Of a stretch of DNA of 36,173 bases, positions 1 through 28,323 are shown in pieces. The translations under genes and the position numbers were made by a program. Each line of letters starts with the position of its first letter. Position 1 is the first letter of the stretch. The stretch is taken from positions 1 to 36,173 of the IMG/VR virus record IMGVR_UViG_3300035698_011179; one strand, written 5' to 3'. Origin of the DNA: a virus. The notes under the pieces were generated by a model. It saw only the letters and a list, made by a program, of their open reading frames with translations. It had not been told where the DNA came from and ran no database searches.

Positions 1-7
1 AAAAAGT

Positions 8-36
8 TTGACATATAAAATTTAAAATGCTAAATA
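8..36 (+). promoter_or_regulatory. Possible sigma-70 promoter at the window start
   Basis: TTGACA at 8-13 and TAAATA at 31-36 are separated by 17 bases, upstream of a 30-codon ORF at 53. The -10 is imperfect and the region is very AT-rich, so chance matches are likely. Confidence 0.3.
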
Positions 37-52
37 AATAAGTATAGTAAGT

Positions 53-145
53 ATGACAATTATTAATGTATATTATTGTGTAGCATTAATAATATGTATG
101 CTGAAAAATGACAAGTTAAATAAAAAGTCGTTTTTCTTGTTATAG
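53..145 (+). CDS. Possible 30-aa hydrophobic small protein
   Basis: An ATG at 53 opens a 30-codon frame ending in TAG at 143-145. The peptide is hydrophobic in its first half and Lys-rich later, and like its neighbours it lacks Gly, Pro and Trp. Just upstream, GTATAGTAAG partly resembles the GTATAGAAAAG leader of the two larger cassettes, which suggests it could be a third, more diverged unit. No matching pair of terminal repeats is visible, perhaps because the left arm lies outside the window. A 10-bp inverted repeat (59-68/84-93) lies inside it. A chance ORF of this length is quite possible. Confidence 0.25.
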   Translation: MTIINVYYCVALIICMLKNDKLNKKSFFLL

Positions 146-210
146 TTATTTGACAACTAAATAAAAACTTAAATAGCTTATACAGTGTGCTGTATAGAAA
201 AGACTACATA

Positions 211-333
211 ATGAAAAATACAGCACTAAAAACTTTTGAAAGCAATTTTGAAACTTTTAATAATGTTTTTATACATATTAATAATGTTGAAACTATAATG
301 TTAACGCAAAGTCTTTGCGTTAACATTATGTGA
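211..333 (+). CDS. Cassette 1 ORF, 40-aa protein of unknown function
   Basis: ATG at 211 follows the shared 18-base leader at one base's distance, just as in cassette 2, and this repeated arrangement is the main evidence that it is real. The 40-residue product is rich in Asn, Phe and Thr and contains no Gly, Pro or Trp. There is no Shine-Dalgarno site, which the GG-free sequence would not allow anyway. The last 12 codons or so are built on a perfect 17-bp inverted repeat (295-311/313-329), so the end of the protein may be dictated by a DNA or RNA structure. It matches no family I recognise. It could instead be a structural RNA. Confidence 0.4.
   Translation: MKNTALKTFESNFETFNNVFIHINNVETIMLTQSLCVNIM
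295..329. repeat. 35-base perfect palindrome with a one-base centre
   Basis: ATAATGTTAACGCAAAG (295-311), T at 312, then its exact reverse complement at 313-329. An outer inverted repeat, TGAAAGCAAT (237-246) and ATTGCTTTCA (341-350), surrounds it. No T-run follows, so it does not look like a rho-independent terminator. An operator, a recombination or replication hairpin, or an RNA structure are all possible. Confidence 0.85.
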
Positions 334-370
334 AAGTTATATTGCTTTCACAATTAAAGACAGTACACAG

Positions 371-401
371 CTTGACATTGACATTTGTTTTGACTTTGAC
401 A
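371..401. repeat. Cluster of four TTGAC repeats
   Basis: TTGACATTGACA is followed by TTTGTT and then TTGACTTTGACA. Four TTGAC motifs lie within about 30 bases of the non-coding part of cassette 1. They could be protein-binding repeats or iterons, or promoter -35 copies, but no good -10 lies at the right distance. Confidence 0.5.
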
Positions 402-515
402 ATTACACTTTTAAAAAAACAGAAATTAATGTTAATACAGCAAACATGAAAATAGCAAATATTTATTTTACAATTAACTAACACAGCACACAGCACACTG
501 TATAAGCTATTTAAG

Positions 516-1166
516 ACTTATATGTATATGTAGTACTAGCTATACGCAATTAAGACGCTTAAAACAGCGTATAGAAAAGACTACATTATGACAACTACAG
601 CTATAGACAATAAGCACATAACTAATGTTAAAGCAATGTATAGCACTTGTTTAGCAAACGACACAGCAAACGACATACATGCAGAAAGCTTTAATGTGTT
701 AAGTAAGTACTTGTCAAAGCACAAATTAGCAATTACAGACATAATTGAAAATAGAAAAATACGTAAAGCACAGTACAACACTTTACATTTTTCAACTACT
801 GAAAAAACACAACTTGAAAAGAAATATTTAAATGCAGAAATAGTGAAAGCTGAAATAGCAGAAAAGCTTTCAACAATAAGTAGACAACTGAAAAATAATA
901 GTAGACGTAATGTCATGCTAACATTTTTAATGTCAAATGTTTGCACTTTCAATGAAATATTACTTGCTATTGACTTATATGCAGACAATAAGTTTTTTCA
1001 GCTGAAAGCTAATACAAGTCATATTAACAGCGTAATAAGTCAAGAAATTGAAAAGTATAAATACACTTGCACAGCTAAAGCAGACAACTTTGACAAAGCT
1101 ACAACAATTATTACGTTTGTTAAGTAAACATAAACTGTATAGCTAGTACTACATATACATATAAGT
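516..1166 (+). repeat. Cassette 2: 651-bp unit with perfect 30-bp terminal inverted repeats
   Basis: Bases 516-545 are the exact reverse complement of 1137-1166. The layout copies cassette 1: left arm, leader hairpin TATACGC/GCGTATA (541-547/567-573), the same 18-base leader (569-586), one ORF, then the right arm. The arms differ in sequence from those of cassette 1 apart from a shared TAGCT(T)ATAC, so each repeat is paired only within its own unit. Confidence 0.85.
588..1127 (+). CDS. Cassette 2 protein, 179 aa, unknown family
   Basis: The ATG follows the leader GTATAGAAAAGACTACAT at one base, exactly as in cassette 1. The product looks largely alpha-helical, with Lys/Glu-rich stretches around residues 50-110 and a hydrophobic patch near 110-130. 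It contains no Gly, Pro or Trp, and every Asp codon is GAC, as the word-exclusion of the whole block requires. I recognise no domain. It lies alone between the 30-bp inverted repeats and has no Shine-Dalgarno site, so initiation must rely on the leader or on a structured 5' end. A long ORF on the other strand (581-988) is treated as its shadow. It may be the cargo or the mobility factor of the unit; neither is shown. Confidence 0.65.
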   Translation: MTTTAIDNKHITNVKAMYSTCLANDTANDIHAESFNVLSKYLSKHKLAITDIIENRKIRKAQYNTLHFSTTEKTQLEKKYLNAEIVKAEIAEKLSTISRQLKNNSRRNVMLTFLMSNVCTFNEILLAIDLYADNKFFQLKANTSHINSVISQEIEKYKYTCTAKADNFDKATTIITFVK

Positions 1167-1202
1167 AATAAGTAATAAGTAAAGTAATTACATGTAGTTA
1201 AG

Positions 1203-1472
1203 CCCCCCTGCTTTTTTACGCACACTTTTATGTATTAAAAGTGGCATAGGCACCGCCACAATATTCTTACCTGAATATCTGAGATCCACAACTACGTTGA
1301 TCCCAATAGCAGTTCTTATAATCCTCCAAGTAACATTCCAAAACCTCTCCTAAGATCTAATCAACAATCCTAGATCATATATCCAAAAATCGGTGAGCAT
1401 GAATATTCGTCAGATAATACCTTCCAATAGCCTTTCGTTAGTGACTTTCTTTCTGGAAGGCTATAATACCGC
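1203..1472. other. Non-coding region upstream of the terminase genes; candidate packaging site
   Basis: No convincing gene lies here. It opens with a C6 run (1203-1208), TGC and a T6 run, then an 8-bp hairpin (1223-1230/1236-1243) and a 6-bp hairpin (1261-1266/1273-1278). Four GATC sites occur at 1283, 1299, 1354 and 1373, although GAT is absent from the previous 1.2 kb. Packaging sites (cos or pac) usually lie just upstream of or within the small-terminase gene, and the P1 pac site is rich in GATC. That this is the packaging site is inference. An 8-bp inverted repeat (1427-1434/1457-1464) lies near the promoter. Confidence 0.4.
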
Positions 1473-1500
1473 TTGACATACCGGGTATATATGTTATAAT
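1473..1500 (+). promoter_or_regulatory. Strong sigma-70-type promoter
   Basis: Consensus TTGACA at 1473-1478 and consensus TATAAT at 1495-1500 with a 16-base spacer. The start point would be near 1507, about 30 bases upstream of the first gene (ATG 1536), which has an AAAGGAG ribosome site at 1523-1529. It probably drives the packaging operon. Confidence 0.8.
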
Positions 1501-1535
1501 CTCACTATACCAATAACCTTGTAAAGGAGACGATT

Positions 1536-1739
1536 ATGGAAGAAAAGAAAAGATATACGGTTCCTTTCCACCTACCTAAGCAAGATACCAAACTCCGCAA
1601 ATCAGGAAGTCTTTGTGCTATGTGTGGAACCGAGATGCTTGATACCTATAGTTTAGCATTGCCGAACAAGAAGATAGTCCAATGTCCTGAGTGCGGACAT
1701 GAGCAAATGATTAATGTAAATGAAGGAGAGTGTATATGA
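1536..1739 (+). CDS. Small zinc-ribbon protein
   Basis: The product is 67 aa with two CxxC pairs (C27/C30 and C50/C53) about 20 residues apart, the layout of a zinc ribbon. The first 22 residues are charged and probably flexible. The start has an AAAGGAG site at good spacing. The stop TGA overlaps the ATG of the next gene (ATGA), so the two are translationally coupled. Zinc ribbons of this kind bind nucleic acid or protein. First in the packaging operon and coupled to the likely small terminase, it may help in DNA recognition or in regulation of the operon. I do not recognise a specific family. Confidence 0.75.
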   Translation: MEEKKRYTVPFHLPKQDTKLRKSGSLCAMCGTEMLDTYSLALPNKKIVQCPECGHEQMINVNEGECI

Positions 1740-2359
1740 GAGTAACTGAGAAGAATACTCTTAAACCTACTAAAGGAGGATTCAAAGGCCATAAACTTAT
1801 TATATTTGATGCTGTACAGAAATGTAGAGGAGAAGATTGTCCACTTCGTGAGTTATGTCCTTATGAGAATACGGGTAAGTGTACAGTAGAGACCAAGTAT
1901 GTTGATGCTGTATTCGATGCTATTATTGATGACATGGGTGATAGCCTTACTCAGAAATTCTTAAATAAAGTATCATTGCATCTGATGCCTTTATTCGGGA
2001 TGCTGGTTAAGATGAAAAAAGTAGCTCTTGCAGTGGAGGAACCTACGTATGTAACAGCTCAAGGTCAAGTCAAGATGCATCCTATATATGAGGAAATACG
2101 TAGAATTATATCAGCTATAGAACGTACCCAGCGTAGTCTGGGGATGGATGGAGAGTATTTAGAAGCTAAGAAAATATTCCGAGGTCAGAAGGACGGAGCT
2201 ATAATGATGCCTGGAGACGATGGTTTACCTCCTGCTAATGCTGATGCCGATTATGTGGATTATATGATAAGTGCAGAAGATAGAAGTATTAAAGCGGAGA
2301 TATTTCCAGAAGGTACTAAAACAGGTGTAAAAAGAGTGAAGAGGAGTGAAGAAGATTAA
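1736..2359 (+). CDS. Putative terminase small subunit with N-terminal Cys cluster
   Basis: The product is 207 aa. I choose ATG 1736 over an in-frame GTG at 1730 because GGAG at 1725-1728 sits 7 bases before it. Residues 105-140 (a His-Pro followed by an amphipathic helix ending in a Leu-Gly-Met) resemble the C-terminal part of P27-type small terminases. Those proteins recognise the packaging site and feed DNA to the large subunit. Residues 30-49 hold four cysteines (C30, C35, C41, C49), a possible metal site not usual in the family. The C-terminus is charged. Its place upstream of the large subunit supports the call, but two genes intervene and the similarity is weak. Confidence 0.5.
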   Translation: MRVTEKNTLKPTKGGFKGHKLIIFDAVQKCRGEDCPLRELCPYENTGKCTVETKYVDAVFDAIIDDMGDSLTQKFLNKVSLHLMPLFGMLVKMKKVALAVEEPTYVTAQGQVKMHPIYEEIRRIISAIERTQRSLGMDGEYLEAKKIFRGQKDGAIMMPGDDGLPPANADADYVDYMISAEDRSIKAEIFPEGTKTGVKRVKRSEED

Positions 2360-3074: not shown

Positions 3075-3141
3075 ACTACTTAATAATAATGTGGGGTTCA
3101 AAGGATATCAGCCTCGTAATCGTACAGGAGTAAATATTTGA
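3061..3141 (+). CDS. Possible 26-aa coupling peptide before the large terminase
   Basis: The ATG at 3061 lies inside the end of the DUF1353 gene and opens a 26-codon frame. Its TGA (3139-3141) overlaps the TTG start of the large terminase (3138-3140). CGGAG at 3046-3050 precedes it by 10 bases. Translation of this ORF would bring ribosomes to the weak TTG start. The peptide is basic and Asn-rich. It may be only a coupling device and not a functional protein. Confidence 0.35.
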   Translation: MSMYRLLNNNVGFKGYQPRNRTGVNI

Positions 3142-4973
3142 AACATACTATAGAGGAGTATAGAAACGGGGGTGAAGGCTTTTGTTTATGGGCTGAGGAT
3201 AATGCTTGGATTTCTATTTACCCAAAAGGTAAGCGTATTCCTGAATGGTATCCTTTAGGCGGATTACCTGAGGAATATTCAGAAATTTGGGAAGGTCAAA
3301 AAGAAATATGTAAAGAAGCATTACGTATGGTGGACGGTAATTTTATTTATACGTTAATAGTATTTTGTTGGATGCGTGGTGAAGGTAAATCTCTTTTAGT
3401 ATGTCTTATACAGCTCTGGAAGTTCTTCTGTTTTCCTAAACAGAAAATAACATTAGGAGCAAATTCCAAAGACCAGACCAAGTTTGTACATTTTGACATC
3501 ATGAAGGACATTATTAATAATAGTCCTAATTTGATTAGAATTGTAGGTTCTAAAAATGTACAGGAAAGAGTAGTTAGACTTATGGATAGACATAATAATG
3601 TGGTATCTACTATTCATCCTATTTCAACTGCTTCTGGTATTGTTTCTAATATTACAGGGTATACATTTTCAGAGTTCTTTGATATGAGGAATACCAAATT
3701 CTTTGTACAGTTAGATGGTTCTGTACGTAATATTCCAAATTCTCTTGGTTTAATTGATTCTACAGTTTCTGATAAAGAACATCAGTTATATGTATTATAT
3801 GAAACTTGGTTAGAAGCTCGAGGATTAACTGATGAAGAAGCTGAAGAACAAGAAAAAGATAAAACAATATTTTTTAGCTATCGTTGTAGTACTCTTGGGG
3901 ATCCTAAAGATTATTGGAATCCTTATATGTCTAAAAAACAATTATTATCTTATAAAAAGAAGTTTCCATTAGGAGATTTTGAAAGATATTTTTTAAATAC
4001 TTGGGATGCAGGTGTTAGAAAGATATTTACTCCAGAATTAATAGAATGCTCTAGGTATCTTGGAGCTAATGGAGTTTATGGAAATAATTCAGAAGTAGCT
4101 AAATTAGTAGAGCGTAAATTAAAAATAAAAGGATTTGCAGATTCAGGGGAATCTAAAGGAATAGAATTTAAAGATCCTGGAGTTTTATTAAATGAAATAG
4201 AAAAATCTCTAGTTCCTGTGGAGTCTATATATAATTTAGGTTCATTATCATCGGGTGTACAAATGATTTCAGGTGCGGATTTAAATAAATTAGGGGCTTT
4301 ATATGACACAGCATGGGTAATAACAGCAGGATTTGATAGATCAGATCCTATGAAAACCCACCCTTTAGCAAGAACTATATATACAGTAGTAGCAAAAGGT
4401 CTTGTTGGGTCTTTATCTAATCCTTTTATGGGGTTAGAGCCTAATTATGTCCCTAAGTATATTTATTTTTTAATTAATATTCAACATTTAACTAATAATT
4501 CTTTAGATGAAATGAAAAGACTTTTAACAGAGTCAGATAAGGAATATGATGGTTTAGATAAAATATGTGCTGAACGTTGGGGTACGTTTGATTTAGATCC
4601 TTGGTGTAAGGATAATGGAATAGAGTATGAAGCAGTTCATCCAGGGTATGAAAAACAGAAAACAGCATTTTCAGAATTATTTGTATTGTATCGTGATCAA
4701 AGGTTTAAAACTCCTATCGTACCTCTTCGAGGACAGAAAATGAATGATATTTTAGAAGAGGAAGCACTTGTATTTGATCACGATGTTTCTAGTAGATGGT
4801 TTGGCAGTTCTGAAAAACATCAGAAATTTGGAGTTCAAGATGATGTTATGTTTAGTTTAGCTTGGTGTATTTGGGGTAGTAGAACAATAGGTCCTGAAAA
4901 GCTTAGAGAAAGAAAAGTAAATTTGTCTTTTGGAGAAATGTTATTAGGAGACGGTCATTTAGGTTCTTATTAA
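3138..4973 (+). CDS. terL: Terminase large subunit (TerL)
   Basis: A 611-aa DNA-packaging motor. The ATPase part has a deviant Walker A, RGEGKS (residues 80-85), and a DST strand end near 207-209. A clear Walker B is hard to place; E179/D182 is a candidate. The nuclease part has Asp400 in GFDRSD, acidic residues around 484-488 and the DD pair at 568-569, matching the RNase H-like fold that cuts packaged DNA. About 110 residues (285-395) between the two domains are longer than usual and low in recognisable motifs. The TTG start is preceded by AGGAG at 3126-3130. The protein docks on the portal encoded next. Confidence 0.92.
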   Translation: MKHTIEEYRNGGEGFCLWAEDNAWISIYPKGKRIPEWYPLGGLPEEYSEIWEGQKEICKEALRMVDGNFIYTLIVFCWMRGEGKSLLVCLIQLWKFFCFPKQKITLGANSKDQTKFVHFDIMKDIINNSPNLIRIVGSKNVQERVVRLMDRHNNVVSTIHPISTASGIVSNITGYTFSEFFDMRNTKFFVQLDGSVRNIPNSLGLIDSTVSDKEHQLYVLYETWLEARGLTDEEAEEQEKDKTIFFSYRCSTLGDPKDYWNPYMSKKQLLSYKKKFPLGDFERYFLNTWDAGVRKIFTPELIECSRYLGANGVYGNNSEVAKLVERKLKIKGFADSGESKGIEFKDPGVLLNEIEKSLVPVESIYNLGSLSSGVQMISGADLNKLGALYDTAWVITAGFDRSDPMKTHPLARTIYTVVAKGLVGSLSNPFMGLEPNYVPKYIYFLINIQHLTNNSLDEMKRLLTESDKEYDGLDKICAERWGTFDLDPWCKDNGIEYEAVHPGYEKQKTAFSELFVLYRDQRFKTPIVPLRGQKMNDILEEEALVFDHDVSSRWFGSSEKHQKFGVQDDVMFSLAWCIWGSRTIGPEKLRERKVNLSFGEMLLGDGHLGSY

Positions 4974-4999
4974 TTTTTTTATTTTATATATAAAAAGGA

Positions 5000-5028
5000 T
5001 TGACAATGGTATTTAAGCGTGCTATAAG
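5000..5028 (+). promoter_or_regulatory. Sigma-70-type promoter for the head operon
   Basis: TTGACA at 5000-5005, 17-base spacer, TATAAG at 5023-5028. A very AT-rich tract with a 14-base palindrome (4982-4995) lies directly upstream and could act as an UP element. Transcription would start near 5035, only about 10 bases before the portal ATG. Confidence 0.65.
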
Positions 5029-5032
5029 ATAA
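5006..5032 (+). CDS. Possible 8-codon leader peptide upstream of the portal gene
   Basis: AAAAAGGA (4992-4999) lies 6 bases before ATG 5006, which opens MVFKRAIR and stops with TAA at 5030-5032, 13 bases before the portal ATG. The portal start itself lacks a ribosome site, so re-initiation after this mini-ORF would explain its translation on read-through transcripts. It overlaps the promoter, so only upstream-initiated mRNA could use it. Confidence 0.35.
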   Translation: MVFKRAIR

Positions 5033-5045
5033 ATAACCCTTATAA

Positions 5046-28239: not shown

Positions 28240-28323
28240 GTGAAAGTAGCCTTTGATATCTTGCGTAGAATAAAAGAACTTTTAATAAGATATATAAGAC
28301 ATTATGAAAAAATTAGAAAATAA
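28240..28323 (+). CDS. Possible 27-aa basic peptide bridging L and K
   Basis: A GTG at 28240 opens 27 codons of a basic amphipathic helix that overlaps the start of the K-like gene by 20 bases. It would couple translation to K, which has no clear ribosome site. There is no good ribosome site before this GTG either, so I give it low weight. Confidence 0.2.
   Translation: MKVAFDILRRIKELLIRYIRHYEKIRK

Follow-up and report, generated by a model that had tools for sequence, protein, structure and literature searches.

Organization of the locus

The term "window" refers throughout to the whole stretch of DNA, an IMG/VR virus record that is linear and 36,173 bases long. Its first 1202 bases lack several short words altogether and are referred to below as the island. 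The features at the locus are listed here with their coordinates and strand.

1..1202, unstranded: word-free island (GG/CC, GAT/ATC, GAG/CTC and GAA followed by C, G or T), a proposed modification-free hub, based on counts, nulls and islands in relatives
168..193, plus: left arm of a 26-nt perfect inverted repeat (partner 490-515)
192..224, plus: 33-nt leader (GTATAGAAAAGACTACATAATGA...), copy 1
295..329, unstranded: perfect palindrome with 17-nt arms, hairpin-forming
490..515, minus: right arm of the 26-nt perfect inverted repeat (partner 168..193)
508..545, plus: left arm of a 38-nt inverted repeat (92%) that flanks the gene for the 179-aa protein (partner 1137-1174)
569..601, plus: second copy of the 33-nt leader (91%), at the beginning of the 179-aa gene
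588..1127, plus: basic protein of 179 aa without Gly, Pro or Trp, possibly helix-turn-helix, with a homologue in L126
1137..1174, minus: right arm of the 38-nt inverted repeat (92%; partner 508..545)
1161..1182, plus: tandem repeat ATAAGTA x3, close to the right border
1203..1208, plus: C6 run forming the right border
1730..2359, plus: conserved 209-aa gene, found between island and terminase in the family, a putative small terminase by position
3138..4973, plus: terminase large subunit (TerL), the query for finding relatives

The 179-aa protein has a homologue at the same place in the relative L126 (43% identity). No close homologues were detected among the viral contigs searched, and a structure model of the protein was of low confidence (pLDDT 54) and unusable. 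Neither a blastn search of the island against isolated phages nor an Rfam scan of window positions 1-1800 gave a match. The leader word TATAGAAAAGACTAC occurs in at least 119 stretches of viral contigs, and no long GG-free run was present at the loci fetched. Past the island and before the packaging genes, positions 1473-1500 match the extended sigma-70 promoter consensus perfectly (TTGACA-16-TATAAT with TG).

Absence of short words from the island

Direct counting gave zero occurrences of GG, CC, GAT, ATC, GAG and CTC in positions 1-1202, in agreement with an earlier note on this DNA that had reported their absence from the letters alone. Also missing, and unremarked there, are GAAC, GAAG and GAAT with their complements; the same stretch is rich in GAC (31) and GAAA (31, counting both strands). 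The exclusion is strand-symmetric and crosses reading frames and non-coding DNA, which places it at the DNA level as the note had argued, and the encoded 179-aa protein is indeed devoid of Gly, Pro and Trp. It stops where the C6 run starts at 1203. On the left, the contig begins inside the island and does not include its border. In the rest of the window the longest gap free of GG and CC is 124 nt.

Three null models were applied to positions 1-1202, a comparison of the kind the earlier note had called for. When the bases of the island were shuffled (20,000 shuffles), GG and CC together occurred 42 times on average and never fewer than 23 times, and all excluded words together had a mean of 100 and a minimum of 66, against an observed count of zero in both cases. 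Windows of 1202 nt taken from the remaining contig contain at least 59 GG+CC, with a mean of 88. Synonymous recoding of the 179-aa protein produced 28 forbidden words on average and at least 12, where the actual gene has none. Since the three nulls never approach zero words, chance and coding constraint are excluded as the cause of the word-free stretch. A chimera or other artefact was ruled out as well: in L126 the gene order is preserved and the homologous gene present, upstream of a terminase that is 70% identical.

Islands at the same locus in relatives

Relatives were gathered using TerL as the query; a TerL search against isolated phages gave no match. The related elements with the same exclusion that the earlier note had proposed to look for do exist, and GG/CC-free islands of 0.4-2.5 kb are found at the same place in many of the terminase-family relatives. 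The GG/CC-free run upstream of the terminase measures 1186 nt in L163, 1146 in L167, 1041 in L141 and 1024 in L160, and further runs at the same locus measure 1017 nt (L166), 956 (L133) and 828 (L135). In L177, a run of 808 nt lies within a locus of 47% GC, and further relatives have such runs as well. The GG-free runs have log10E values of -15 to -43, and the largest island, that of G057, comprises 2244 nt at the contig end (log10E -98) and about 2.5 kb across the contig junction, at 43% GC. No other dinucleotide showed anything comparable at the island locus of the relatives. In joined contigs there is a single such locus per genome. L212, a contig binned with a Desulfobacterales MAG, likewise lacks GG and CC over a stretch upstream of its terminase, and this binning is a possible hint at the host.

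The island is positioned at the point where the two halves of the genes diverge and where the sign of the GC skew also flips, with the skew minimum 1.0-3.7 kb from the middle of the island in five genomes. The terminase genes follow 0.8-4 kb downstream. A bidirectional replication origin is expected to show a GC-skew minimum from which gene directions diverge. The relatives show this arrangement, but the skew switch coincides with gene direction and is confounded with the direction of transcription, so the skew is no separate proof of an origin.

Islands contain inverted or short tandem repeats, which in the window are the inverted repeats and the short heptad repeat listed above and in L129 include nine 11-bp repeats. 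No repeat or other element common to all islands was found among those compared. C-runs occur at or near the equivalent right border in L129, L132, L133 and L141. To the right of the island, blocks of the form CC-N-TTTTTT-CCC are repeated in L129 (1616-1720), L132 (2040-2120), L141 (3780-3900) and L143 (8615-8800), and may possibly be a protein-binding or packaging signal. The GG-poor island of L126 adjoins a tandem repeat with a GG-rich 23-bp unit (GGTTTGGTTAAGATGTA..., at least seven copies, positions 1-180), with which the contig ends. An AGA-free stretch in G054 was rejected as a word-free island, being a repeat array: a degenerate array of about 0.8 kb with TTTGGAATGAAGTTAG-like units occupies positions 59291-60103 of that contig.

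Islands of the GG class encode small, mostly basic proteins of 109-193 aa that have no Gly, Pro or Trp; in proteins from YGG-class islands Trp alone is absent. Several island proteins give a weak helix-turn-helix signal near the C-terminus, none of them significant. The model of a related protein from L167 (pLDDT 73) gave only weak matches of the winged-helix type, the best with an E of 0.07.

The excluded word differs among relatives

The excluded word is GG in most relatives, and longer words containing GG were found where there is no GG/CC island. The island is free of YGG in G023 and G024, with YGG depleted about tenfold in G048 and L179; it is free of GGB in G026, L168 and L185, of GGD in G010 and of GGS in G027. 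The set excluded in the window is GG+GAT+GAG+GAAB. The additional exclusion of GAT, GAG and GAAT is common to the window and its nearest relative L126, which tolerates GGC. At the island locus of G028, TGG and GGA words are only partly depleted.

The words that remain are informative about the cause. In the G010 island, GGA, GGG and GGT are at zero and GGC reaches 81 per kb versus 28 in the genome; in G024, CGG and TGG are at zero and AGG stands at 55 per kb versus 24; and in the GGB-free island of G026, GGA occurs at 56 per kb versus 55. With sister words at or above the genome rate, neither composition nor amino-acid usage nor mutation is a favored cause. The G+C content of GG-class islands is somewhat below that of their genomes (0.34 versus 0.41 in G012), as a local mutational process or composition effect would have it, but the G010 island has a higher GC content than its genome (51% versus 45%) together with its threefold GGC, and AGG is doubled in G024 where CGG and TGG have vanished. 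The unusual mutational process raised in the earlier note therefore has hardly any probability left, in view of sister words (AGG, GGC, GGA) that are normal to threefold.

The note had also suggested escape from a GG-directed nuclease or from a CRISPR system with an NGG or CC PAM. Defenses of this kind could act on the first-entering DNA, and in many family members the excluded word does resemble a PAM. Such escape would be expected to produce avoidance across the genome or in all entering DNA, but GG is abundant elsewhere in every genome, outside the single island locus. Relatives exclude GGB, GGD or YGG instead, and one fixed locus of 1 kb could not shield a genome of 90 kb, so we consider host restriction or CRISPR a most improbable cause.

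Modification genes in the family

Relatives carry genes for FolE, QueD-like and QueE-like proteins, QueC and DpdA in a slot between the replicative helicase and the DNA polymerase. These are the genes of the 7-deazaguanine DNA modification pathway, in which dpdA acts together with the genes for preQ0 synthesis (folE, queD, queE and queC). The full folE/queD/queE/queC/dpdA set was found in G012 and G013, and dpdA with folE in G007, G016, G020, G024, G048 and G057. An island is present in all eight relatives in which both loci are readable and DpdA was found, and FolE is likewise present in eight of eight; six belong to the GG class (G007, G012, G013, G016, G020 and G057) and two to the YGG class (G024 and G048). 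Several relatives' contigs end before the cassette, and few genomes are available to link cassette with word. The DpdA proteins of the GG and YGG classes do not form two clear sequence groups. Generic profiles for TGT (PF01702) and C5-methylase (PF00145) gave no hits, in the case of TGT probably because DpdA is too divergent.

In G026, neither DpdA nor FolE was found, and N6/N4 methyltransferase genes occupy the same slot in this genome with a GGB-free island. G050 (90 kb, locus covered) has no DpdA, FolE, cassette or island, the longest GG gap at the locus being 81 nt, and is the single clean negative control inside the family. In the G028 slot (L270:2317-6888), a large radical SAM/N6-N4 methyltransferase frame is accompanied by genes for a thymidylate-synthase-like protein and a PP-loop ATPase, which together may form a different hypermodification pathway.

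The 36-kb contig of the window ends before the cassette region. FolE and DpdA are encoded on L382, a fragment from the same metagenome as the closest relative, L126, and the tetranucleotide signature of L382 is by far the nearest to that of the window (r 0.945, next 0.835). For the window phage this match is suggestive, though not proof. Two further observations concern the cassette proteins. The 608-aa DpdA frame of G024 (contig positions 23665-25500) seems to be split by an intein-like insert that directly follows the conserved YPWY motif. In L322 the DpdA frame is 605 aa, and a QueC-like protein (3701-5038) has an N-terminal region resembling a class-II amidotransferase; this Gat-QueC type would predict archaeosine, not preQ0.

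A possible role for the island

As read from the genomes, the family has a fixed locus, a varying excluded word, a cassette or methyltransferases in one slot, and no island in G050. Of the causes named in the earlier note, avoidance of a modification enzyme is the best supported, to which we add that the enzyme would most likely be the phage's own. Our preferred explanation, which we hold to be probable, is that the island is an origin or packaging hub selected to be free of the sites of that enzyme. Purifying selection would remove the enzyme's recognition word from the island, which would stay chemically unmodified while the remaining genome is modified. Naked DNA would be required because duplex opening by an initiator would take place here, at the origin; the small island-encoded protein is perhaps that initiator. 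We infer both that the enzymes of the slot would target exactly the excluded words and which process would need naked DNA: the start of replication has about an even chance, and the start of packaging and first transcription are each given a small share.

One alternative is that the island holds the pac region and that the terminase recognizes or cuts only unmodified DNA there. Packaging of phage P1 depends on methylation of pac, and only 0.8-4 kb separate the islands from the terminase genes downstream. The pac cut of phage 9g has been mapped to nt 28243, in a divergent intergenic region upstream of terB (PMC5567051). However, 9g has DpdA yet no word-free island; the island far exceeds the length of a pac site and contains a gene; and the GC-skew minimum suits an origin at least as well. 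We regard a pac requirement by itself as unlikely. Much the same can be said of first transcription, in which modified bases would slow the host RNA polymerase so that promoters and the first regulator gene would need naked DNA. The island is the point from which transcription diverges, and it usually contains a small gene whose product gives a weak helix-turn-helix signal in several cases, but the genes flanking it on both sides sit outside and contain the word, and the sole full-consensus promoter near the window island (1473-1500) is also outside, leaving this a doubtful reading.

The excluded word could also be the start word of a primase, removed so that neither strand is primed within the origin. 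The origin-like position, the G/C runs in the flanks and the size of three-letter GG-core words, which matches primase recognition, would fit. Lagging-strand priming predicts a strand-specific exclusion on each side, however, and the exclusion is symmetric throughout; nor is the GG+GAT+GAG+GAAB set of the window primase-like. A primase-site-free zone is thus very improbable.

Returning to an origin kept free of the phage's own modification, we think it reasonably likely that this is a kilobase-scale naked origin, genes included, with no or almost no target sites of that enzyme, and that it is rewritten to a new word when the enzyme changes specificity or is swapped for another type, so that the island would reveal the motif without any measurement. 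If true, sequence design would divide the genomes of these phages into a modified and an unmodified part, one or more essential transactions could not run on hypermodified DNA, and the motifs of DpdA and methyltransferases would become readable from uncultured phage genomes. The islands also provide natural proteins of 109-193 residues without glycine, proline and tryptophan.

Comparison with known systems

The 7-deazaguanine phages CAjan, 9g and Rosebush carry the same FolE-QueD-QueE-QueC-DpdA cassette as the complete relatives. DpdA of CAjan modifies G at GA and GGC (PMC10002423, PMC8306585). These are short words with G in first place, like the putative targets in this family, and their resemblance to the GG and GA-type exclusion of the window was counted in favor of avoidance of the phage's own modification. 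The new part relative to the known 7-deazaguanine phages is the island, and we found no description of such word-free islands in the open literature (subscription papers lay outside the search). The isolated DpdA phages CAjan, 9g, ART, Me-ZS1, phiSM and ZHS have no word-free island (9g and phiSM over 50 kb). Modification alone therefore does not force an island, and the requirement would be specific to the machinery of this family. The 95-kb "complete genome" of Achromobacter phage vB_Ade_ART (MH746817, L299/L300) contains two terminases, portals/capsids and tape measures, and may be two phages joined.

Avoidance of restriction sites in phage genomes is likewise selection against a short DNA word. 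The islands differ in that the avoidance is confined to one locus, is near-complete, concerns a word of two to three letters and is apparently aimed at the phage's own enzyme. In phage P1, packaging is dependent on Dam methylation of the pac site, so that one phage DNA transaction hinges on whether a particular locus is modified, as is proposed here. P1 concentrates its sites at pac, whereas the phages described here remove theirs over 0.6-2.5 kb.
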